Assembly (NCBI GenBank): GCA_001612575.1
Contig: LJRV01000130.1
Span: 1-49,315, forward strand
Source of the DNA: Streptobacillus notomytis
GTDB taxonomy: Bacteria; Fusobacteriota; Fusobacteriia; Fusobacteriales; Leptotrichiaceae
Direction: 5' to 3'
DNA length: 49,315 nucleotides
Shown: one piece after another, positions 3,665-45,985 of the stretch
Numbering within the stretch: position 1 is the stretch's first letter
How the letters are laid out: each line of letters opens with the position of its first letter
The notes under the pieces: generated by a model
What the model was told of the DNA's origin: nothing
The model's database searches: none
What the model saw: only the letters and a program-made list of their open reading frames with translations
Translations under genes and position numbers: made by a program

Positions 3665-5452
3665 TCAATCTCCCTTTAAAACTATTATTTCTTTATAACA
3701 TTTCTCTAAATTATTAATATTTACAATATTTCTAAGTTTATTTAATAATTTACCTACATATATTTTTTTTCTAATCTTTTCATTAATAGGTAAAATATCA
3801 ATTAAATGTTCATATTTTCTTATCAATAATTCTAACCAAGTTTTAATTATTCTAATATAGTCTTCGTCTGTATAATTGTTTTTAAACTCACATGTTGTTT
3901 CTATCATAAACTCTTCTTCATCTTTTGTTAAAACAAGTGTAGAAATTTCATTCATTTCATAATTAACAGATAAAAGTTTCTTATGTAACTCCATATATTT
4001 ATCACTTTTAAACTCAAAAGATTTAAGCATATTATACAACATTTGATCAACTTCTTTTCCAAATAACAAGAAAACTATACTTAATTTTTCTAACTCTTCT
4101 TGTCTGTTTATCTTTTCATTAAAATTATCTTTAGTATTATTTTTTAAAACATTCGTACTCTTAACATTTTTAACAATATTTCTTCTATATCTTGACAGAA
4201 TATATTCAGATTCTACATCAATTAATCTTGAAAATATTTTTATTTCATCATTATATACTATATCATTAGTTATATTCTCAAAATATGATTTCATCAATTC
4301 TATAGCTTCTCTTTTTGAGGCAGTTTGAGTAAAATCAAAATCTTTTAAATCCATTTGTATTACATAATCTAATGATCCAATTGATTTACCTAATATATTA
4401 ACAAAATCATTTTTACTATACTTTTTAAAATATTCATCAGGATCTTTTACATCATCAGGTAAACTGGCACATTTAATATTAAATTCTAATTTATTTAATA
4501 TATTTATTACTGATTTAGTTGCTTTTTGACCTGCATCATCTTTATCATACATTATAATTACATTGTCTGTATATTTTTTTAATAACTTAGCCTGATTTTC
4601 AGTAAAGGCTGTTCCTAAAGAAGCAACTGCATTATTAAAAGTATTAATATGTGAACTAAGCACATCTAAAAAACCTTCCATTAATATTGCATATTTTTTC
4701 TCTTTTATTTCTATACCTCTATTAAATAATCCATATAATTCACTACTTTTATCAAAAATATAGCTTTCATTAGAATTTATATATTTAGGTATATTTACAT
4801 TTTTTCCTATATATCTACCACCAAAACCAACTATTTGTTGATAACTATTAAATATAGGAAATATTATTCTTTCCCTAAATGTATCATAAATATTAGTGCT
4901 ATCTGTAGAACTTACTGTAACTAAACCTAATTTAATTAATTCTTCAGTTTCATATTTTTCTTTTAAATGATAATATAGTGAATGCCATTCATCATTAGCA
5001 TAACCTATATCATATCTATTTAAATCATTTAAATTAAATCCTCTATTAATTAAATATTCCTTAGCTTCTACTGATTTTTCAAAATTTGATTTAAAAAACT
5101 CTAATGCTTCTCTTAAAATCTTATGTCCAACACTTTCTTTAACATTATACTTTGAATTATTTTTTTTTATTCTTATACCATATTTTTGTGAAAGTTCATA
5201 CAATGCTTCATAATAAGAAATATTTTTAATATATGAATAAAAATTTATTACATTTCCACCTTTTCCTGTACTAAAATCCTTAAAAATCTTTTTTCTTGGA
5301 CTAACAGAAAATGATGGAGTATTTTCACTTTTAAAAGGAGAATATCCCTTATAATTTACTCCTGCCTTATTTAAATCAACATATTGTCCTATTAGATCAA
5401 CTATATCAATATTATTAATTATTTTTTCTTCATCTTCAGACAGTTTATACAT
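3665..5452 (-). CDS. dnaG: DNA primase DnaG without zinc ligands
   Basis: DnaG makes RNA primers for replication. I start at the second Met (5452; 595 residues) because GGAGG sits 5 bases upstream of it and between the two candidate ATGs. The N-terminal domain aligns with the zinc-binding domain, but its C-H-C-C ligands are Ser38, Lys41, Asp59 and Thr62 ([12 protein letters not shown] and [11 protein letters not shown]). The surrounding TPSFSVSP and GGNVI motifs remain. The Toprim core is intact: ILMEGFLDV supplies the Glu and [11 protein letters not shown] the acidic residues. The C-terminal helicase-interaction region is divergent. The gene is 44 bases after rpoZ and ends in TGA abutting rpoD. 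Confidence 0.95.
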
Positions 5453-5507
5453 ATACTCCTCCATAATATAAGTATAGTGTGATATTTAAAATTGTCAATA
5501 TAATATA

Positions 5508-6297: not shown

Positions 6298-9200
6298 TTA
6301 TATTTCATCTATTATTTTACCGTCATCTTCACCTAAGTATAAATTTAAATCCTTATAATTTTTAAATCCTGTTCCTCCTGGTATTTTCTTACCTATAGTT
6401 ACATTTTCTTTAAGCCCTTCAAGTCTATCCACTTTTCCTTCAACTGCTGCATTTGCTAATACTTTAGTTGTTTCTTGGAATGATGATGCTGATATAAAGC
6501 TTTCTGTATTTACAGCTGCTTTTGTTATACCTTGAATAACAGGTTCAAAAATTGCAGGTTTCTTACCTTTAGAAACTAAAATTTTATTTTCTCTTTCAAT
6601 TACTTTTTTATCTACTAATTCATCTTCTAAGAATAATGAATCTCCTGATTCTTTAATTCTAATCTTTTGGAACATTTGTTTAACTATTATTTCTATATGT
6701 TTATCATTAACAGTAACACCTTGGCTTCTATATACTTCTTGTACTGATTCAAGTATAAATTGTTGTGCCTCAACTGCTCCTTTAATTCTCAATATATCAT
6801 GTGGTGATATAGGACCTTCTGTTAATTTATCTCCAGCATTTATTATCATTTCATTTGAAACTACTAAATGCTCTCCAGCAGGTATTGAATATTCTTCTAT
6901 TACAGTATCTTTATCTATATCATGAATTTCAACAACTCTCATACCTTTTTTAGTTTTATCTGAGAACTTAATTCTTCCACCAACATTAGCAAGTATAGCC
7001 TTACCTTTTAGATTTCTAGCTTCAAATAATTCTTGAACTCTTGGAAGACCTCCAGTAATATCTTTATTTCCTCCACCTGTTTTAGGTAATTTAGAAATTA
7101 TATCTCCTGGTTTAATCATTTCTCCTTCTTTAAATAATAAATAAGAACCATAATTTATGTCATATTCTTTTATTTTCTTACCTTTATCATCATATACTAT
7201 AACTCTTGGTTTAACTTGAGTGCTTTCTATAGGTTTAATAGCTAATCTTTCAGTAACATCATATTTAACATCTATATTTTCTTTAATATATATATCTCTA
7301 AATTCAATACGTCCAGCTACTGTTGAAATAGTTGGAGTTTGGAAAGGATCAAACTCTATTAATACTTGTCCTTTTGTTACTTTTTCATTATTTTTAACTC
7401 TTAATGTTGAACCTGAAGGTACTTCATAACGATATTTACCTAATATTACTTTACCTATTGATGAAACAACTATTTCTCTACCATCAGGATAAATAAATGT
7501 TTCAATGTTTTCAAATTTAATTTTTCCGTCCTCATCTGCCTTATAATCAGATTGAACTTCAGAACCTGTAGCTACCCCTCCTGTATGGAAAGTACGCATT
7601 GTAAGCTGAGTTCCAGGTTCTCCAATTGATTGAGCTGCAATAACTCCTACTGCTTCTCCAAGTAATACTTCTTTATGGTTAGATAAATCAACACCATAAC
7701 ATTTTTTACATACACCTTTATCAAGTCTACATGTTAATGGTGATCTCATCTTAACACTACTTATGTTTCTCTTAATTATTTCAGATAATAAATCTTTAGT
7801 AATTAAAGTATTTGCTTTAGCTATTACTTTTCCATCATCTACTAAATCTTCAGCTAGGAATCTTCCATATATTCTTTCTTCTAATTTTTCTATAACTTTA
7901 CCTTCATAAGTTAAATCACTTACTTCTATTCCATGATTTCCACAACCACAATCATCTTTATTAACTATTAATTCATGAGAAACATCTACAAGTCTTCTTG
8001 TTAAATATCCTGAATCAGCAGTTCTTAAAGCCGTATCTGCTAACCCTTTTCTCGCACCATGTGATGACATAAAGAACTCTAATACGTTTAATCCTTCTCT
8101 AAAGTTTGCTTTAATTGGTATTTCTATAATTTCCCCTTTAGTATTTGACATCATTCCACGCATTCCACCTAATTGACGAATCTGTGCAATAGAACCTCTG
8201 GCTCCAGAATTTGCCATCATGTATACTGGATTAAATTGATCTAAACTATCCATCATGGCTTTAGTTACATCATTAGTAGCTTTATTCCATACTTGAACTG
8301 TTCTTCTATATCTTTCATCATTAATAATTTCACCTGCTTTATATGCATTTTCAATATCTAATACATCCTGATCTGCTTTAGCAAGTATAGCTTTTTTCTC
8401 AACTGGAATTTGTAAATCTTCTATACCAACACTTACCCCAGCAAATGTAGCAAAGTGATATCCAAATTCTTTAATTTTATCTATTAATTCACAAGTTTTT
8501 TCAAATCCATATTGTTCATATAGTCCTGCTATTAATTTTCCTAATTCTCCTTTACCAAAAGTAACTTCATAATTTCTAATTTCTTCTGGTAATAATTGGT
8601 TAAATATTATTCTACCTGGTGTAGTTCTAATAATTTTACCATCTATTCTTACATTAACTAATGCATGAACTCCAACCTTTTCATTTTGATATGCTGTTAT
8701 TAACTGATTTATGCTAGAAAAAGATTTATTTTCTCCTATTTCTCCTAATCTTTCTTTAGTCATGTAATAACAACCCATAACCATATCTTGAGATGGAACT
8801 GCTATAGGTTTACCACTTGAAGGAGCAATAATATTATTAGTAGCAAGCATTAATAACTTAGCCTCAAGTTGTGCCTCTGGTGATAAAACTAAGTGAACAG
8901 CCATTTGGTCTCCATCAAAATCGGCATTGAAAGCAGAACATACTAATGGATGAAGTCTAATAGCTTTTCCTTCAATTAATGTTGGTTCAAATGCTTGTAT
9001 TGATAATCTATGTAGAGTTGGGGCACGGTTTAATAACACTGGGTGATTTTTAATAATTTCTTCTATTAATTCCCAAACTGCTTCATTTTCCTCTTCTACC
9101 ATTTTTTTAGCAGTTTTAACGTTGCTAGATATTCCTCTTTTAACTAATTCTCTCATTAAAAATGGTTTGTATAATTCTAATGCCATTTTCTTAGGTAATC

Positions 9201-10269
9201 CACATTGATGGATTTTTAAATTTGGTCCTACTACTATAACAGAACGTCCTGAATAATCCACACGTTTTCCAAGTAAGTTTTGTCTAAATCTACCTTGTTT
9301 ACCTTTTAACATATTTGATAATGATTTAAGTTCTCTATTAGATTGAGTAACAACTGGTTTACCACGTCTACCATTATCTATTAGAGCATCTACTGCTTCT
9401 TGAAGCATTCTTTTTTCATTTCTTATCATTATTTCTGGAGCGTTAGAATCTATTAATTTTTGTAATCTAATATTTCTATTTATTACTCTTCTATATAAAT
9501 CATTTAAATCACTAGTTGCAAATCTTCCACCATCAAGTTGTACTAAAGGTCTTAAATCTGCTGGTATAACTGGTAATATAGTTAGGATTAACCATTCAGG
9601 CTTATTTCCAGAACTAATGAAATCTCTAACTATTTTTAATCTTTTTACCATTTTTTTTCTTTTTTGAGTTGAATTTTCTTTATCAATTTCTGCTTCTAAT
9701 TCTTTTTCTAAAACTGGCAATTCTAATTCTTGTAATAAATCTAATATACCTTCAGCTCCCATTTTAGCACGGAATGAACCACGTTCTTTTCTTTCCATAC
9801 ATAATCTGTACTGTTGTTCTCTAATAATTTGATTTTTACTAAATTCAGTATTTCCACCATCTATAACTATATATCTTGAGAAATATAACACAGCTTCAAG
9901 TTCTTTAGTACTTATCCCTAGAAGTAAACTCATTTTATTTGGTGTTCCTTTAGAATACCAAATATGGGCTATAGGAGTTGCAAGTTTAATGTGTCCCATT
10001 CTTTCTCTTCTAACTTTAGAAGTTGTAATAGTAACTTTACATTTTTCACATACAGTTCCTTTATCTTTCATTTTTTTGTGTTTACCACATGTACATTCAT
10101 AATCTTTTGTTGGTCCAAATATTCTCTCACAAAACAGACCATCTGGTTCTGGTTTTAATGTTCTATAATTTATAGTTTCTGATTTAGTTACTTCTCCATA
10201 AGACCATTCTAATACCTTCTCAGGCGAAGCAAGTTTAATTTGAATACTATCAAAATCTCTTATACTCAT
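6298..10269 (-). CDS. rpoC: RNA polymerase beta' subunit
   Basis: This 1323-residue protein is the beta' catalytic subunit. The N-terminal zinc ribbon is seen in CTCGKH...CEKCK. The catalytic magnesium loop NADFDGDQMAVH is intact. A second zinc site is built by CGCGNHG with CRLDKGVCKKCYG. The trigger-loop/bridge region contains SIGEPGTQLTMRTFHTGG. Length and order are normal for beta'. It starts 30 bases after rpoB, and gmk follows within 50 bases. Confidence 0.98.
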   Translation of the reverse strand: MSIRDFDSIQIKLASPEKVLEWSYGEVTKSETINYRTLKPEPDGLFCERIFGPTKDYECTCGKHKKMKDKGTVCEKCKVTITTSKVRRERMGHIKLATPIAHIWYSKGTPNKMSLLLGISTKELEAVLYFSRYIVIDGGNTEFSKNQIIREQQYRLCMERKERGSFRAKMGAEGILDLLQELELPVLEKELEAEIDKENSTQKRKKMVKRLKIVRDFISSGNKPEWLILTILPVIPADLRPLVQLDGGRFATSDLNDLYRRVINRNIRLQKLIDSNAPEIMIRNEKRMLQEAVDALIDNGRRGKPVVTQSNRELKSLSNMLKGKQGRFRQNLLGKRVDYSGRSVIVVGPNLKIHQCGLPKKMALELYKPFLMRELVKRGISSNVKTAKKMVEEENEAVWELIEEIIKNHPVLLNRAPTLHRLSIQAFEPTLIEGKAIRLHPLVCSAFNADFDGDQMAVHLVLSPEAQLEAKLLMLATNNIIAPSSGKPIAVPSQDMVMGCYYMTKERLGEIGENKSFSSINQLITAYQNEKVGVHALVNVRIDGKIIRTTPGRIIFNQLLPEEIRNYEVTFGKGELGKLIAGLYEQYGFEKTCELIDKIKEFGYHFATFAGVSVGIEDLQIPVEKKAILAKADQDVLDIENAYKAGEIINDERYRRTVQVWNKATNDVTKAMMDSLDQFNPVYMMANSGARGSIAQIRQLGGMRGMMSNTKGEIIEIPIKANFREGLNVLEFFMSSHGARKGLADTALRTADSGYLTRRLVDVSHELIVNKDDCGCGNHGIEVSDLTYEGKVIEKLEERIYGRFLAEDLVDDGKVIAKANTLITKDLLSEIIKRNISSVKMRSPLTCRLDKGVCKKCYGVDLSNHKEVLLGEAVGVIAAQSIGEPGTQLTMRTFHTGGVATGSEVQSDYKADEDGKIKFENIETFIYPDGREIVVSSIGKVILGKYRYEVPSGSTLRVKNNEKVTKGQVLIEFDPFQTPTISTVAGRIEFRDIYIKENIDVKYDVTERLAIKPIESTQVKPRVIVYDDKGKKIKEYDINYGSYLLFKEGEMIKPGDIISKLPKTGGGNKDITGGLPRVQELFEARNLKGKAILANVGGRIKFSDKTKKGMRVVEIHDIDKDTVIEEYSIPAGEHLVVSNEMIINAGDKLTEGPISPHDILRIKGAVEAQQFILESVQEVYRSQGVTVNDKHIEIIVKQMFQKIRIKESGDSLFLEDELVDKKVIERENKILVSKGKKPAIFEPVIQGITKAAVNTESFISASSFQETTKVLANAAVEGKVDRLEGLKENVTIGKKIPGGTGFKNYKDLNLYLGEDDGKIIDEI

Positions 10270-14324: not shown

Positions 14325-14819
14325 TTAAGCTTCTTTTTGTTCTGCTACGTTAGATAATCCAACTGCTAACATTCTTACTGGCGATAATAATCCGTATGCT
14401 ATCATACCTAGTAATTCTGGTCTTGATGGTAACTTAGCTAATGATTCTATCATGTTTTTATCAGCTACTTTTCCATCTATTATTCCACCTTTAATTTTTA
14501 ATTTTTCACCTTTAAATTGTTGTGCAAAATCATAGATTAATTTTGATGGTGCAACTCCATCTTCAAAACCTAAAGCAAAAGATGTTGTTCCTTCAGCTAA
14601 TTCTTTTAACTCAAGATCTAAACCAACATTTTTTAAAGCTATTTGTACTAATCTGTTTTTAGCAACAAAATATTCTACATTAACTTTTCTTGCTTCACTT
14701 CTTAATTTTGTATCTTCATTAACTGTAATTCCTTTATAATCAACGAAAACTACTGCTTTTGCTTCTCTTAATTTTTCAGTTAACATTTCTACTGCTGCAA
14801 TATTAGCCTTTGATGCCAT
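14325..14819 (-). CDS. rplJ: 50S ribosomal protein L10
   Basis: This 164-residue protein anchors the L7/L12 stalk to 23S rRNA. The N-terminal segment has VFVDYKGITV, the middle has EYFVAKNRL, and the C-terminal helix that binds L7/L12 dimers ends the protein. AAGGAGGTG precedes the ATG. Upstream is an L10-leader-like structure with a terminator, indicating autogenous control by the L10-L12 complex. The usual rplK-rplA pair is not upstream; tRNA genes occupy that place. Confidence 0.97.
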   Translation of the reverse strand: MASKANIAAVEMLTEKLREAKAVVFVDYKGITVNEDTKLRSEARKVNVEYFVAKNRLVQIALKNVGLDLELKELAEGTTSFALGFEDGVAPSKLIYDFAQQFKGEKLKIKGGIIDGKVADKNMIESLAKLPSRPELLGMIAYGLLSPVRMLAVGLSNVAEQKEA

Positions 14820-14841
14820 ATTGTTTCACCTCCTTGTAAAT

Positions 14842-14955
14842 AAAAAAACCACTATATTTTAGTGGGCGAGGTTAGAAGTATATACCTTAAATATATGTAT
14901 TATACTCAGAACTCACCTCGGTAGGATTTACTTTGTACCTACTGTCTTTAGTTTG
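14842..14955 (-). promoter_or_regulatory. L10 leader with terminator
   Basis: The leader RNA contains AAAGACAGTAGG (14938-14949 region) and CCTACCGAGGTGA, the conserved kink-turn-like elements of the ribosomal protein L10 leader family. It ends with an intrinsic terminator of stem CCACTA/TAGTGG (14849-14865) followed by TTTTTTT, about 16 bases before the rplJ Shine-Dalgarno. In the known family, excess L10-L12 complex binds the leader and favours termination. Only 28 bases separate it from the upstream tRNA-Leu gene. Confidence 0.85.
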
Positions 14956-14983
14956 TTCAAATGATTATTCATTTTAACAAAAA

Positions 14984-17914: not shown

Positions 17915-18034
17915 AAAAAAACTTCCTTTCTGCAAAGGAAGTAAATACTTTAATTTAAAAATACTTCCCTACGCCAGCATTACCTGTATCAGGTTTGTGG
18001 GTATAATCTCAGCCTTTTACAGCACCCCAATATT
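17915..18034 (-). promoter_or_regulatory. TPP riboswitch with terminator
   Basis: The aptamer (about 17960-18034) has the conserved GGGGTGC, GCTGAGA, ACCC, CCTGAT, CAGGTAATGCTGGCGTAGGGAA series of the THI element. Downstream, CTTCCTTT/AAAGGAAG (17922-17941) followed by TTTTTTT is an intrinsic terminator. GGAAGTA just after the aptamer can pair with TACTTCC of the terminator's 5' arm, giving a plausible antiterminator. Thiamine pyrophosphate should therefore switch thiXYZ off. The element begins directly after the lysR stop. Confidence 0.93.
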
Positions 18035-18035
18035 T

Positions 18036-18932
18036 TTATTTCTTTTTAATTATACTATCTGTTTCAAATTTTATATTATACTGCTTAAAAAATTCAACAA
18101 AGTTTACTATACACGCCTTATTTTCATTTTCTTTCAAATAAACTAACTGGAATTTATCTTCAAGCTTATCAAATTCATGAACTAAATTCATTTTTTTAGC
18201 TTTAATTTCTTCATATACACAATAATAAGGTAATACACTAATTCCCATACCATTCATTACAAGATTTTTAATAGTTTCATTGCTACCATTAACAATTATT
18301 TTTCTGTCAAAATTATGATTTATTATTTCTTCAAATTTTTCTATATATTTAGATGCTAATTGAGTATCTTTTTTTAACATACTCATTTCTTTAATATCTT
18401 CTACTCTATTAACATACGGAGGTGCAATAACTACAAATGGATAATTATCAGTTTGAACAAATCTAAGATCTTTTTCATCTACAATTTCTTCTTCCATCAT
18501 AGCTATATCTATTATTCCATCTTTAATATGTTTTACAAGTGAAGTGCTATTTTTAATATATAAATCAAACTCAACTTCCTTGTATTTTTTACTATAATCT
18601 GTAATTATCTTTGGTAAAAGAGGTTCTCCTATATTGTGTGTTGCTCCAACTACAATTTTAGATTTATGATTTGAAACTATCTTTTTCATTTCATTTTCCA
18701 TACGAGATATCTTATTAAATATATCTTGAGACATCTTATATAATTCATTACCTGCAAATGTAAGTTTAAAAGTTTTAGAATTTCTTTCTATTAATTGCGT
18801 TGACATAGAAAGTTCAAATTTCTTTAATTGTATTGAAACAGCTGATTGACTTATAAATAATTTTTTAGCGGCCTTAGTAAAGCTTTTTTCATTACATGTT
18901 TCGTAAAAAATTTTCAGATGATGTATATCCAA
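18036..18932 (-). CDS. LysR-family transcriptional regulator
   Basis: The 298-residue protein has the N-terminal winged helix-turn-helix of LysR factors (LKIFYETCNEKSFTKAAKKL and ISQSAVSIQLKKFE, residues about 5-40), followed by a two-lobed effector domain. The start is TTG at 18932, with AAAGGATG 8-9 bases upstream. It has its own promoter at 18986-19014. It sits divergently from the purine permease and directly before the TPP riboswitch on the same strand. The regulated target and inducer cannot be told from sequence. CysB- or CbbR-like subfamilies are possible alternatives. Confidence 0.9.
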   Translation of the reverse strand: MDIHHLKIFYETCNEKSFTKAAKKLFISQSAVSIQLKKFELSMSTQLIERNSKTFKLTFAGNELYKMSQDIFNKISRMENEMKKIVSNHKSKIVVGATHNIGEPLLPKIITDYSKKYKEVEFDLYIKNSTSLVKHIKDGIIDIAMMEEEIVDEKDLRFVQTDNYPFVVIAPPYVNRVEDIKEMSMLKKDTQLASKYIEKFEEIINHNFDRKIIVNGSNETIKNLVMNGMGISVLPYYCVYEEIKAKKMNLVHEFDKLEDKFQLVYLKENENKACIVNFVEFFKQYNIKFETDSIIKKK

Positions 18933-19030: not shown

Positions 19031-19059
19031 TTTACTTTTTTTATATTTCATGATAATAT
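19031..19059 (+). promoter_or_regulatory. Promoter of purine permease
   Basis: TTTACT (19031-19036) and TAATAT (19054-19059) have a 17-base spacer. Transcription would start only a few bases before the purine riboswitch. Confidence 0.65.
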
Positions 19060-19070
19060 GTTTATGAAAA

Positions 19071-19146
19071 AAAATCGTATATCTCCTTATAAATGGCAAG
19101 GAAGTTTCTACCCTAGAGCCTTGATCTAGGACTACGAAGATATTGT
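19071..19146 (+). promoter_or_regulatory. Purine riboswitch, guanine class
   Basis: The sequence has the family core: CGTATAT, CTCCTTATAAATGGC, GGAAGTTTCTACC, P3 arms CCTAGA/TCTAGG, and GGACTACGA. The base that pairs with the ligand is C in GACTACG, so it should bind guanine or hypoxanthine rather than adenine. P1 is short (CGTA/TACG). The expression platform is not clear. AACTTTCTT followed by a T-rich tract (19172 onward) can pair with AAGGAAGTT of the aptamer, and there is no obvious stand-alone terminator. Confidence 0.9.
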
Positions 19147-19218
19147 ATATTCTTAGTTATGAACTTTCTTTTTTATTTTTAATGGATGCGATTTAAAAAT
19201 ACAGAAGGGAGTTTTTTT

Positions 19219-20553
19219 GTGAATAAATTTTTTAAATTTTACACTTATGAAACTAATTTTAAAACAGAGTTAATAGCTGGAATTACAACATTTTTAACTA
19301 TGGCATATATTTTAGGAGTTAATGTAGGTATTTTATCTACTGCTGGTCTACCAGCAAATGCTGTTTTCTTAGCAACCGCTATATCTGCAGCTGTAGCTTG
19401 TATATTTATGGGGTTTTATTCTAACTCACCTGTAGCACTAGCACCTGGTATGGGACTTAATGCATTCTTTACATATACAGTTGTACTTGAATATGGTTAT
19501 ACATGGCAAGAAGCTCTAGCAATGGTATTTTTATCAGGAGTAATATTTTTATTAATTTCATTGTTAGGATTAAGAAAATTGATTATAGACTCTATACCAG
19601 TAGGTTTAAAACAATCTATAGGAGCTGGAATAGGTTTCTTCATAGCATTTATTGGTCTTGTTAAAATGGGAGTAATAGTAGCTAGTCCTGCCACATTAGT
19701 TACACTAGGAAACTTCAAAAATCCTACTGTATTACTTGCATTATTCGGATTATTTATAACAATTATTTTAATGAGTTTAGAATTTAAATCAGGAATATTT
19801 ATAGGGTTATTTATAACTGCAATTGTTGGTATTATTTTAAATAAAGCAGGAATTACTGGAATGCCTGCAACTCCAACAAAAATAGTAAGTATACAATTTG
19901 ACACTTCAGCAATTGGAGCTTTTGTAGATGGATTAAAATCAATAATGAATAAACCACAAACTATAATAGTTGTATTTACAATGTTATTTGTTGATTTCTT
20001 TGATACAGCAGGTACATTAATAGCTGTTACAAATAAGATTAATAATAATGGTAGAAAAAATTATGATATGGATAAAATGTTCTATTCAGATGCTATAGGT
20101 ACTATAGTAGGATCAGCTTTAGGAACTTCAAATGTTACAAGTTATATAGAATCTACTAGTGGAGTTGCTGTTGGTGGAAGAACTGGACTAACTTCAATAA
20201 TTGTTGGTTTATTATTCTTATTATCTACTTTATTTTCTCCTTTATTAACAGTAATATCTGGTATAGAAGTTAATGGAGTGTTCTTAGAACCTGTAGTTGC
20301 TCCTTCACTTGTAGTAGTTGGTATTTTAATGGCAACACAACTTTCTAATGTTGATTGGAGTGATTTCTCAACTGCAGCAGCTGGATTTATAACTATAATA
20401 GTAATGATATTATCTTATTCTATAGCAGATGGTATTGCAGCTGGATTTATAGTATATGTATTAAGTAAATTATTTACAAGTAAACGTAAAAAAATTGGAA
20501 AAGTAGTTTGGTTATTATTTATAATATTCTTAATATATTTCATAACAAGATAA
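19219..20553 (+). CDS. pbuG: Guanine/hypoxanthine permease (AzgA type)
   Basis: The 444-residue polytopic membrane protein matches the AzgA/PbuG branch of the NCS2 purine transporters, which import guanine or hypoxanthine. Conserved segments are FLTMAYILGVN near the N-terminus, APGMGLNAFFTYTV, FVDFFDTAGTLIAV and ESTSGVAVGGRTGLTS. I choose the GTG at 19219 because GAAGGGAG lies 7 bases upstream and the following residues (NKFFKFYTYET) fit the family start. An ATG at 19186 in frame has no ribosome-binding site. The guanine-class riboswitch upstream independently supports the substrate. Confidence 0.92.
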   Translation: MNKFFKFYTYETNFKTELIAGITTFLTMAYILGVNVGILSTAGLPANAVFLATAISAAVACIFMGFYSNSPVALAPGMGLNAFFTYTVVLEYGYTWQEALAMVFLSGVIFLLISLLGLRKLIIDSIPVGLKQSIGAGIGFFIAFIGLVKMGVIVASPATLVTLGNFKNPTVLLALFGLFITIILMSLEFKSGIFIGLFITAIVGIILNKAGITGMPATPTKIVSIQFDTSAIGAFVDGLKSIMNKPQTIIVVFTMLFVDFFDTAGTLIAVTNKINNNGRKNYDMDKMFYSDAIGTIVGSALGTSNVTSYIESTSGVAVGGRTGLTSIIVGLLFLLSTLFSPLLTVISGIEVNGVFLEPVVAPSLVVVGILMATQLSNVDWSDFSTAAAGFITIIVMILSYSIADGIAAGFIVYVLSKLFTSKRKKIGKVVWLLFIIFLIYFITR

Positions 20554-28588: not shown

Positions 28589-30772
28589 TTATACCTGTTC
28601 TTCCCAAAATTCAAAATATTTACCACGTTTTTCTAATAACTCTAAATGTTCTCCACTTTCAATTATTTTTCCTTTTTCAAATATAAAGATTTTATCACAC
28701 ATTTTTATAGTTTTTAATCTGTGAGCTATTATTATTGTAGTTATTTCTAAGCTATCAATCACATTTTTTATAGATTTTTCTGTTATAAAATCTAAATTGC
28801 TTGTCGCTTCATCTAATATTAAAATATCTGGTTTCTTTAATAATGCTCTTAAAATTGATAATCTTTGCCTTTGACCGCCAGATAAATTTTTACCATTTTC
28901 CTCTATTAATGTTTCAAATCTATTAGGGAGTTGATTTATAAAATCTAATATTTTCAATTTTTCAGATAAATCTAAAATTTCTTTCCAATCTACTCCTTCA
29001 TCTACAAATAAATTCTCTCTAATAGTTTTATTAAATAAAAATGTTTCTTGAGATACATACCCTATTTTTTCTCTTAAAAAATATGTATCTATATCTTTTA
29101 TATTAATACCACCTATCTTTATTTCTCCCTCTTCATAATCATAATATCTCATTAATAATTTTGCCAAAGTAGTTTTTCCACTTCCAGATTCTCCAATAAA
29201 AGCTATTTTTTGATTATTTTTTATATTAATATTTATATTATCTAATATTAATTTTCTAGTACCATATCTAAACTTTAAATTCTTAATTTCTATTTTTTCT
29301 TTCAAATTATTTAAATTAACTTTATTCTTTAATTTTTTTTCTTCTAATTCTAATTCAAATATTTCTCCAATTCTATTTGCAGCAACAATTAAATTTTGAA
29401 ATTGAATTTGTAAATTAAATATTTTTTTCAGAGGGTCTAAAAAGAATGCTAACAATGATAAAAAAACAAATAATTCTCCCAATGACATTTTACCTTTTAT
29501 AACTTCATTAGAACCAATCCAAATAATTAAGTAATTTCCAATTGTAGATATATTGTTAGAAATAAAATTTATTATATTATATAATTTCCCTCTATTATAA
29601 ATTGATTTTAAAAATTCTATAAATCTATAATCTGTTTCATCTTCTATAATTTTTTCTAAATTATATGATTTTATAGTTTCTATCCCATTTATATTCTCTA
29701 TAATATTTGATGTTAATATTGCATTTTTTTCTAATACATCTTGATTTTTTATTTTTATCTTATTTTTAAAAATACTATAAACTAAAAAATATAACATTAA
29801 TAATGCTAAAGAAACAAAAAACAATCTAACATTGTAATAAAATAAGATTATTCCTCCAAGTAAAGATAAAGGCATATCTATTGTTAAAGTAAATAATATA
29901 TCAGATATTGCCTGTCTTATATTAGAACCATCTGAAAACCGAGAAATTATCTCTCCTATCTTCCTTGTTGCAAAAAAATTTAATGGTAAATTTATTATAT
30001 GCTTATAATATCCAAATAATATTATGTCATCTATCCTTTGACTTAAAAATAATATTAATTGGTTTCTTACAAGTTCTAAAATAGATTTTATTACTGATAA
30101 AAAAACAACCCCAGTCATTATAATATTTAAAGTAGTTACTAACTTATTTTTCAAAACATAATCTACTACTATTTTAAAATAAAGTGATGTAAATATTCCT
30201 AAAAATAAAATAATAAAAGATATTATTATAATATTATAAATTAAGATTTTTTGTAATTTTATACTCTTAAAAAATGTCCAAAAATCTATTTTATTTATAT
30301 TAATTTTTTTTATATCCATTGTTTTATCAATTAAAATAAGAATACCTGTCCAAAATTTATAAAAATCTTCTAAATTATATTCTAAAACACCTTTTGCAGG
30401 GTCAGAAATAACAATTTTATCTTTATTTATATTTTGAATAACTACATAATGATACATATTTTTATCATTTATAATATGTGCTATTGCTGGAAGTTTTAAG
30501 GTATTATCAATTTTTTTATCACTTATTTTTACTGCTCTTCCGTTTAAATTAAAGTATTCCAATCCTTTTAAAATACCATAAATGTTCGTTCCTTGTTTGT
30601 CAGTTCCAGCAATTTCTCTTAATCTAGCTATAGAGTACTCAATTTTATATTCTTTCAAAATTGTTAATATACATGCTGGACCACAATCTTTTTCATCTTG
30701 TTGTAAAACACAATAGAATTTTTTTCTAAAAAACATTTTTTGTTGTATGTTATAGTTTAAAACTATAATCAT
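28589..30772 (-). CDS. Peptidase-containing bacteriocin ABC exporter
   Basis: This 727-residue protein cuts the leader after Gly-Gly and exports the peptide. The N-terminal C39 peptidase has QQDEKDCGPAC with catalytic Cys30, MYHYVV with His108 and SDPAKG with Asp124. The middle contains about six membrane helices. The ATPase has Walker A GESGSGKTT, signature LSGGQRQRLS, Walker B with DEATSNLD and switch IIAHR. All catalytic residues are present. AAGGAG precedes the ATG and a promoter lies at 30800-30828. The HlyD adaptor follows after 4 bases, and precursor peptides with matching double-glycine leaders lie divergently upstream. Confidence 0.95.
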   Translation of the reverse strand: MIIVLNYNIQQKMFFRKKFYCVLQQDEKDCGPACILTILKEYKIEYSIARLREIAGTDKQGTNIYGILKGLEYFNLNGRAVKISDKKIDNTLKLPAIAHIINDKNMYHYVVIQNINKDKIVISDPAKGVLEYNLEDFYKFWTGILILIDKTMDIKKININKIDFWTFFKSIKLQKILIYNIIIISFIILFLGIFTSLYFKIVVDYVLKNKLVTTLNIIMTGVVFLSVIKSILELVRNQLILFLSQRIDDIILFGYYKHIINLPLNFFATRKIGEIISRFSDGSNIRQAISDILFTLTIDMPLSLLGGIILFYYNVRLFFVSLALLMLYFLVYSIFKNKIKIKNQDVLEKNAILTSNIIENINGIETIKSYNLEKIIEDETDYRFIEFLKSIYNRGKLYNIINFISNNISTIGNYLIIWIGSNEVIKGKMSLGELFVFLSLLAFFLDPLKKIFNLQIQFQNLIVAANRIGEIFELELEEKKLKNKVNLNNLKEKIEIKNLKFRYGTRKLILDNININIKNNQKIAFIGESGSGKTTLAKLLMRYYDYEEGEIKIGGINIKDIDTYFLREKIGYVSQETFLFNKTIRENLFVDEGVDWKEILDLSEKLKILDFINQLPNRFETLIEENGKNLSGGQRQRLSILRALLKKPDILILDEATSNLDFITEKSIKNVIDSLEITTIIIAHRLKTIKMCDKIFIFEKGKIIESGEHLELLEKRGKYFEFWEEQV

Positions 30773-43678: not shown

Positions 43679-45985
43679 CTATTTCTTTTTAATTTTTTTT
43701 GTAGTCGTAGCTTTAGTTTTATTCTTAGAAACTCTTTTTTTAACATTGTCAGATTTAGGTATTTTCTTTATATTTTCACATTTAGGATAACCACTGCATG
43801 CTAAAAATTTACCATATCTTCCAATTTTAATATTAAATTCACTACCACATTTTTCGCATTTCCCTGCATATTCAAGTATTTTTTCATTTTCATTATCTAA
43901 TTTATCAAAATATTCTTTTAATAAATATACTCCATTTACAGGTTTTAAAGTTCCTTTTTTAATTTTTGTTTTTAAATCTTTAGTTAAAGATTTTCTTAAA
44001 TTATCGTTTTCATATTCTTCACTTTCAAGATATTCTCCAAATCTTCCAATTTTCAACAAATATTGGCTTCCATTAGGAGTAAACATATCAGTTTTAAAAC
44101 CTTTTTTTATTTCCAATAATTCTTTTACTTTATCTTTTATCTCAACTACATCTTTACTTAAATCTTCTTCATTTAACTCTATACCTTGTATAGAAATTTT
44201 TTCCGTACTGTCAAATTCACAAACTATATATTTACCAAAACTTCCACTTTTTAGTATCATTTTACCTTTACCATTACTACATTCCATATCAGTGTATATA
44301 ACTTTATTTTTAAGTTCATCAACTTTTTGTTTATACACATCCATTTCAATTAATAGATGGTTATAAAATTCTTTAAGCAAATCAATCCAAAAAGTTTTAC
44401 CCGTCGCTACATCATCAAGTTTATTTTCCATACTAGCAGTAAATTTAACATTCATAATATTTTTAAAATTATTTTCAAGTAATGTTTTTACTTCTTTTCC
44501 AAATACTGTAGGTACCAATCTTTTTTCAACTATATCAACATATTTTTTTTCTTTAATTGCATCAATTATACTTGCATACGTAGAAGGTCTTCCTATACCT
44601 AAACTTTCAAGTTTTTTTATTAATGATGCTTCAGAATATCTCGCAGGTGGTTTTGTATCCCCCATTTTAGTTAAAATTTCATCAATATCATACTTAGTAT
44701 TCTCTTTTAATTCAGGAAAATTACCAGTTTGTATCATATCTTCACTTTTAAATATTTTATAATATCCATCAAAAGTAATTTTATTTATACTCCCTTTAAA
44801 TATATATTCATCTTTTGATGCTATAATCTGCATTTGATTGTATTTTACATTAGCAAATTGTGAAACTAAAAATCTTTCCCAAATTAATTTATATAACTTA
44901 TACTCCTCATTAGTTAAGTATTTTTCTATTTTTTCAGGAGATAATTTAATATCTGTAGGTCTTATACCTTCATGAGCATCTTGTATATTTTTATTTCCAG
45001 ATACATAGTAATTACCTACATACTCTTTTCCATATTTTTTTTCTATATATTTTTTTACTTCAAATTTAGCTTCTTCAGAAACTCTTATAGAGTCTGTTCT
45101 CATATATGTAATTAACCCTTTACTTTCACCATCAATATTTAATCCTTCATAAAGCCTTTGAGCTACTCTCATAGTTTTAGTTGCATTAAATCCTAAATAT
45201 GATGATGCAAGCTGTTGTAAAGTACTAGTTTTGAATACAACTGGTGGTTTTTGAGATTTTTTTGATATTTTTATATCATCTATCATTACTTTACTATTTT
45301 CTAAATCTAAAAGAGCTTTTTTAAATTTTTGCTCATCAAAGATTTTATCTATTTTTTCACCATTAATTTCACTAAGATTTAATTTAATATCTTTATTTAT
45401 TAAAATATCTATTTCAAAATATTTTTGTGATACAAAGTTTTTTATTTCTTCTTCTAAATCACAAATCAATTTAAGTGATACAGATTGTACTCTTCCTGCT
45501 GATGCTTTTTTTCCAACTATTGGCCATAATAAAGGAGATATCTTATATCCCACTATTCTATCTAATAATCTTCTTGCTTGTTGTGAATTAACTAAATTTA
45601 AGTCTATATTTCTTGGATGTCTTATTGCATTTGATATTGCAGTTTTTGTAATTTCATTAAATTCTATTCTTTTAACCTTAGAATCTTGATCGATATATTT
45701 TGAGATATGCCATGCTATAGCTTCACCTTCTCTATCCAAATCGGAAGCAAGGAAAACTTTGCTAGCTTTTTTAGATTTTTCTTTTAACTTTTCAAGAATT
45801 TCTTTTTTACCCTTTATTATCTTATAATCTGGTTTAAAATCATTTTGTATATCTATACCTATTTTACTTTTTGGTAAATCAATACAATGTCCCACTGATG
45901 CAAGAACTTCATAATTTGGTCCTAATATTTTTTCTATTGTTTTTGCTTTTGATGGAGACTCCACTATTACTAAATTTTTAGACAT
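43679..45985 (-). CDS. topA: DNA topoisomerase I
   Basis: The 768-residue type IA topoisomerase relaxes negative supercoils. The Toprim domain has IVESPSKAKTIEKIL and ASDLDREGEAIAWHI; the active-site tyrosine is in GLITYMRTDS near residue 297. RPSTYASII lies later in the core. The C-terminus keeps one clear zinc finger with CEKCG and CSGYPKC plus a second module lacking cysteines (SGSFGKYIV), and ends with a lysine-rich tail. The ATG overlaps dprA by 8 bases. Confidence 0.97.
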   Translation of the reverse strand: MSKNLVIVESPSKAKTIEKILGPNYEVLASVGHCIDLPKSKIGIDIQNDFKPDYKIIKGKKEILEKLKEKSKKASKVFLASDLDREGEAIAWHISKYIDQDSKVKRIEFNEITKTAISNAIRHPRNIDLNLVNSQQARRLLDRIVGYKISPLLWPIVGKKASAGRVQSVSLKLICDLEEEIKNFVSQKYFEIDILINKDIKLNLSEINGEKIDKIFDEQKFKKALLDLENSKVMIDDIKISKKSQKPPVVFKTSTLQQLASSYLGFNATKTMRVAQRLYEGLNIDGESKGLITYMRTDSIRVSEEAKFEVKKYIEKKYGKEYVGNYYVSGNKNIQDAHEGIRPTDIKLSPEKIEKYLTNEEYKLYKLIWERFLVSQFANVKYNQMQIIASKDEYIFKGSINKITFDGYYKIFKSEDMIQTGNFPELKENTKYDIDEILTKMGDTKPPARYSEASLIKKLESLGIGRPSTYASIIDAIKEKKYVDIVEKRLVPTVFGKEVKTLLENNFKNIMNVKFTASMENKLDDVATGKTFWIDLLKEFYNHLLIEMDVYKQKVDELKNKVIYTDMECSNGKGKMILKSGSFGKYIVCEFDSTEKISIQGIELNEEDLSKDVVEIKDKVKELLEIKKGFKTDMFTPNGSQYLLKIGRFGEYLESEEYENDNLRKSLTKDLKTKIKKGTLKPVNGVYLLKEYFDKLDNENEKILEYAGKCEKCGSEFNIKIGRYGKFLACSGYPKCENIKKIPKSDNVKKRVSKNKTKATTTKKIKKK

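Follow-up and report, generated by a model that had tools for sequence, protein, structure and literature searches.

Can a bacterial primase retain its N-terminal zinc ribbon once every ligand of the metal has been replaced? The question is raised by dnaG in a 49,315-nucleotide stretch of Streptobacillus notomytis DNA (contig LJRV01000130.1, analyzed as a whole and referred to here as the window), which encodes a protein with Ser, Lys, Asp and Thr at the positions of the Cys-His-Cys-Cys zinc site.

The Streptobacillus DnaG and its zinc-ligand positions

The gene, its domains and ligand-position residues, and its downstream neighbor are located in the window as follows.

3665–5452, minus strand: dnaG, DNA primase of 595 aa, stop included, start ATG 5452; TIGR01391; the only DnaG of the genome
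5159–5428, minus strand: CHC2/Zn_ribbon_DnaG domain, zinc-free; PF01807, E = 4.7e-27; AF2 pLDDT 94.8, TMq 0.84 and 1.8 Å to 1D0Q
5339–5341, minus strand: Ser38, at the position of zinc ligand Cys 1; Ser in 31/31 of the family, Cys in 37/37 outside
5330–5332, minus strand: Lys41, at the position of the zinc ligand His; Lys in 30 and Arg in 1 of 31 in the family, His in 37/37 outside
5276–5278, minus strand: Asp59, at the position of zinc ligand Cys 2; Asp in 31/31 of the family, Cys in 37/37 outside
5267–5269, minus strand: Thr62, at the position of zinc ligand Cys 3; Thr in 18 and Ser in 13 of the family, Cys in 37 outside
5267–5272, minus strand: Ser61-Thr62, with Ser61 an additional family-fixed residue; Ser in 31 of the family, Val in 29, Gly in 4 and Ser in 4 outside
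4430–5098, minus strand: RNA polymerase core, DNAG_N plus Toprim, with E259, D303 and D305; PF08275, PF13155
2518–3663, minus strand: gene for an rpoD-like sigma factor, immediately 3′ of dnaG, named by inspection of the ORF list and sequence

The start at ATG 5452 was preferred to the longest-ORF start at 5464 because a GGAGGAG Shine-Dalgarno sequence lies immediately 5′ of ATG 5452 on the minus strand. Residues are numbered from this ATG; the longest ORF (3665–5464) adds four residues, which places the quartet at 42, 45, 63 and 66. With the equivalog model for DnaG, TIGR01391, the protein reaches 362.1 bits where 283.6 is the cut-off, and with Zn_ribbon_DnaG/PF01807 it reaches 91 bits (cut-off 24.9); its C-terminal part has no Pfam match beyond residue 350, with helices predicted by AF2 at 443–596. 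In the alignment with E. coli DnaG, Ser38, Lys41, Asp59 and Thr62 fall on the ligands C40, H43, C61 and C64, so that with the ATG 5452 start the loss of all four ligands, as proposed in a sequence-only reading of this DNA, is confirmed. The TPSFSVSP and GGNVI segments and the Toprim catalytic acids are retained, as that reading had also stated, and the acids E259, D303 and D305 are invariant over 57 DnaG proteins.

The placement of dnaG next to rpoD and its single copy represent a housekeeping position. A second, standard DnaG in the genome, a possibility raised by the sequence-only reading as a challenge to its own claim, was not found in searches with the CHC2 and DNAG_N profiles, which give one domain of each kind in the organism's own genome (99.99% complete, 823 contigs); a whole-protein scan of the contigs, sensitive to close relatives only, gives one locus. 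The Streptobacillus enzyme shares with typical bacterial DnaG (TIGR01391; 1D0Q from G. stearothermophilus and 2AU3 from A. aeolicus) its domain order, fold, Toprim acids, TPSF and GG motifs and dnaG-rpoD context, and differs from the 1D0Q and 2AU3 type in having S-K-D-T for all four zinc ligands.

Distribution of the quartet in Fusobacteriota

DnaG was detected in 96 of 98 Fusobacteriota genomes. Within the window's family (10 genera, probably Leptotrichiaceae) all 31 aligned sequences carry S-[K/R]-D-[S/T], whereas C-H-C-C is found in all 37 aligned sequences from the five other Fusobacteriota families. Because the separation is complete on both sides, the ligand loss in all likelihood became fixed a single time, on one family's stem, and the replacement quartet has stayed fixed there, which settles the timing that the sequence-only reading had hoped to obtain from such an alignment. 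The pattern indicates that the replacement is no chance or local mutation. In one genome of the same order (dnaG locus within 2967000–2975000) the reading frame is broken in the CHC2 region by one TAG and one TAA, owing either to sequencing error or to a real lesion.

Zinc sites in other proteins of the family

DnaX retains its four zinc cysteines at 30 of the 30 loci read in the same family, and the zinc cysteines of PriA and RecR are likewise retained (12/12 and 11/11, respectively). Two further zinc proteins are encoded in the window itself.

6298–10269, minus strand: rpoC, both zinc-site cysteine sets kept (CTCGKHKKMKDKGTVCEKC and CRLDKGVCKKC)
43679–45985, minus strand: topA, C4 zinc finger kept; PF01396, 49.8 bits against a cut-off of 32; CEKCGSEF...CSGYPKC

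As all five proteins keep their cysteines, zinc loss is specific to DnaG among the proteins tested. A general loss of zinc from the replisome was also considered and is rejected for these five proteins. These sites bear in addition on the proposal that zinc economy or redox resistance drove the change, the lineage shedding zinc sites as it would in acquiring C− ribosomal proteins. We regard this driver as rather unlikely, given the five retained sites and given that other Fusobacteriota, presumably of similar habitats, retain C-H-C-C; in its favor, Fusobacteria have mostly zinc-free ribosomal proteins according to a 2009 survey (PMC3087516, Table 2), and for that reason zinc economy keeps a place among the candidate drivers. 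It would be compatible with a metal-free ribbon, since it explains why the metal was lost and not how the domain manages in its absence.

Constraint and predicted fold of the N-terminal domain

Invariant columns within the family make up 33% of the N-terminal domain, 16% of the polymerase core and 1% of the C-terminal part, and dN/dS of the N-terminal domain is 0.03–0.22 in nine pairs, at or below that of the core in most of them. Both measures point to strong purifying selection on the domain, which is not decaying. They bear directly on the idea that the domain is degenerate and functionless, with priming dependent on the core and the helicase. A precedent of this kind is provided by metazoan Twinkle, in which the T7-type primase domain lacks its zinc cysteines and the primase activity was lost together with them (PMC3610141). 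In Twinkle, however, the primase motifs have gone as well, whereas the Streptobacillus core is intact in its catalytic acids and belongs to the sole DnaG, and the domain at issue has the highest conservation in the protein along with its low dN/dS. In B. subtilis DnaG, moreover, the N-terminal domain is needed for ssDNA binding and the core alone forms no stable ssDNA complex (PMC5429622). We consider a functionless domain extremely improbable.

In the full-length AF2 model the N-terminal domain has pLDDT values of mostly 84–93 and matches 2AU3, as well as 1D0Q at 2.2 Å. The domain was also modeled from 81 zinc-free sequences only, an input chosen to keep the signal of zinc-bearing relatives out of AF2. 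The resulting model (pLDDT 94.8, pTM 0.86) superimposes on 1D0Q at 1.8 Å over 91 columns with a TMq of 0.84, and on 2AU3 with a TMq of 0.90; its confidence is no proof of metal-free stability, because AF2 models zinc domains without zinc in any case. With that reservation, the predictions lend support to the earlier proposal that the fold is kept without metal. The PF01807 match and the predicted model are those of a primase zinc-ribbon fold, and the C-H-C-C ligands are absent; having S-K-D-T in their place, the Streptobacillus domain is a CHC2 homologue that ought not to be classed among the zinc fingers.

A metal site built from other residues had been named in the sequence-only reading as a finding that would count against it. 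The 31-sequence alignment of the family shows no conserved Cys or His in the N-terminal domain, so no such substitute is available there. A hard-metal site is a different matter, in which Mg2+, Mn2+ or Ca2+ would be held by Asp59, Glu43 and the Ser/Thr hydroxyls, D-x-S-[ST] being loosely MIDAS-like. Asp59 and Glu43 (63 and 47 in the full ORF) are invariant in 81 of 81 zinc-free sequences, with Ser61 present in 76 and Ser/Thr62 in 75, as such a site would lead one to expect. Set against this, the second ligand position is Lys or Arg in 31 of 31 family members, which puts a cation at the place of the metal, and Glu43 is also common in zinc-bearing DnaG proteins of a second phylum (see below) and is therefore not specific. 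On this evidence we judge a hard-metal site improbable.

Recurrence in other cells, phages and plasmids

Searches with the window's domain retrieve phage and plasmid primases, mostly with C-H-C-C. Zinc-less quartets are present in the primases of Flavobacterium phages laban6-1 and 1H (S-V-D-S and S-T-D-S), in one Mycoplasmatota plasmid primase (n = 1; S-N-D-S) and in a Toprim/CHC2-like protein of a Bacteroides finegoldii plasmid (1504–2463; S-R-D-I), and a Cellulophaga phage primase has S-V-C-S. Peptides taken from the window's domain, used to scan viral sequences by a method sensitive to close relatives only, found no relative.

A degenerate DNA pattern for x-P-F...P-S-F...D-F matches 18 of 287 genomes of the second phylum (small genomes, about 0.4–2.0 Mb), and the reversed control pattern matches none. 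All 18 matches are chromosomal DnaG with one CHC2 domain per genome, and the genome sizes suggest that the phylum belongs to the candidate phyla radiation. The same pattern with GG added finds 56 viral contigs, nearly all of which align as CHC2 primases; a viral subgroup consists of phage primases of about 330–380 aa (YISQY...SPFK.E.TPSFSV...YDFSSG.GG) with the quartet S-[K/T/Q/R]-D-S. The known distribution covers Fusobacteriota and this one other phylum, together with the viral and plasmid matches. Recurrence of the quartet in other lineages had been overlooked by the sequence-only reading.

The Asp of the second-phylum and viral sets is not independent evidence, since the search pattern required it. 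The remaining positions are more informative: position 1, at which the pattern allows Cys, Ser, Thr, Arg or Trp, is Ser in 55 of 55 rows outside the family, and position 4, which the pattern leaves unconstrained, is Ser or Thr in 49 of the 55 and is preceded by Ser in 50. Position 2 is variable across the zinc-free lineages (K, T, S, N, V, G, R, Q, A). When the Asp position is relaxed to C/D/G/Y, 211 genomes match, and among the matches listed are four S-x-C and no C-x-D. These four are S-x-C-T (CFST) DnaG proteins, from three second-phylum genomes, and show a partial loss of the zinc site with the fifth residue, the preceding Ser, also present. They suggest themselves as possible intermediates, in which case the outer Cys would have changed to Ser/Thr first and the inner Cys to Asp later.

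Evolutionary origin

The polymerase-core tree places the family as sister to the other Fusobacteriota and distant from the second phylum; on this tree the zinc-free state needs three changes, the split of two second-phylum groups being not strongly supported. The tree of the N-terminal domain, from which the ligand columns were removed, also joins the family to the other Fusobacteriota (support 86), and topologies that force the family together with the second-phylum forms are rejected (pAU 0.011, or 0.021 with phages added). As the domain alignment has only 85 columns, this result is good but not final. The best match outside the family is a zinc-bearing Fusobacterium DnaG (57.7%). In-place substitution under vertical descent is favored by these comparisons over gene transfer, and the trees indicate that the zinc-free state arose separately in the family, probably Leptotrichiaceae, and in the second phylum.

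Transfer could also have been confined to the N-terminal domain, with recombination bringing in the version of a phage or plasmid primase from which zinc had been lost beforehand. Potential donors exist, in that S-x-D-S is present in the primases of Flavobacterium phages and on numerous viral contigs, and these viral forms reach up to 56% identity with the window's domain. The placement of the domain within Fusobacteriota when the ligand columns are left out, the rejected union with phages and the identity of the closest outside match all argue against such a donor, to which we assign a very low probability. The primases of phages laban6-1 and 1H (annotated CHC2/Toprim) have S-x-D-S at the same four columns, but are at least 900–1000 aa long with extra domains and are not specifically related to the Streptobacillus protein by the tree.

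Predicted arrangement of the metal-free ribbon

We think it highly probable that the protein is the sole replicative DnaG and has a metal-free zinc ribbon that keeps its fold by means of a cluster of polar and salt-bridge interactions. In domains of the 1D0Q type, zinc clamps two β-hairpin turns. With the four zinc-binding side chains changed to Ser, Lys, Asp and Thr, a buried polar cluster is predicted to take the place of the metal, with Lys41 near Asp59 in position to form a salt bridge, and with the two turns formerly clamped by zinc connected through the hydroxyl groups of Ser38, Ser61 and Thr62. Thr, Ser, Asn and other residues substitute for Lys41 in other lineages; the salt bridge cannot explain everything, because position 2 is T, S, N, V, G or Q elsewhere. 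The metal-free domain would then present the template to the Toprim core as it does in zinc-bearing DnaG. Template preference or regulation may nonetheless be altered, as the sequence-only reading had suggested; the exact role of the primase zinc motif has been described as unresolved (PMC6163395).

Zinc and zinc-free forms of ribbons in the information machinery are also known from C− ribosomal proteins such as S4 (PMC3087516). Those forms spread largely through gene transfer and paralogues, whereas here a single DnaG orthologue underwent in-place substitution, and the result is fixed across a family. Among primases, the PrimPol of phage NrS-1 offers a parallel in which a serine-rich SPS loop substitutes for a zinc finger (PMC8718748), but that enzyme belongs to the unrelated AEP superfamily and its motif is an active-site element that binds dNTP. 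Searches of mostly open full texts found no description of a zinc-free cellular DnaG.

More tentatively, and with somewhat less than even confidence, we propose that S-x-D-[S/T] with a preceding Ser is a general code by which the primase ribbon does without metal, and that cells and phages have arrived at it repeatedly, possibly by way of S-x-C-T. It would alter the function of the domain, for example by changing the initiation trinucleotide or primer length or by making it insensitive to a lack of zinc and to oxidation of thiols, and zinc would be a dispensable structural and regulatory choice that is not needed for template recognition. A zinc-free sole DnaG throughout a family, together with independent and near-identical cases, constitutes a natural experiment that separates the structural role of the metal from template reading. 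For S-x-D-[S/T] primases the annotation "CHC2 zinc finger" is wrong, and primase inhibitors directed at the zinc site would be expected to miss the DnaG of this family, the presumed Leptotrichiaceae.

Other features of the window

Three structured RNAs and an exporter gene were observed elsewhere in the window.

17948–18039, minus strand: TPP riboswitch, adjoining genes for an NMT1/THI5-like binding protein and an ABC transporter
19055–19154, plus strand: purine riboswitch, preceding a xanthine/uracil permease-family gene (19186–20553)
14834–14969, minus strand: ribosomal protein L10 leader, score 44.8 against a gathering threshold of 44, upstream of the ORF at 14325–14819
28589–30772, minus strand: protein with peptidase C39 and ABC transporter domains, a bacteriocin-type exporter
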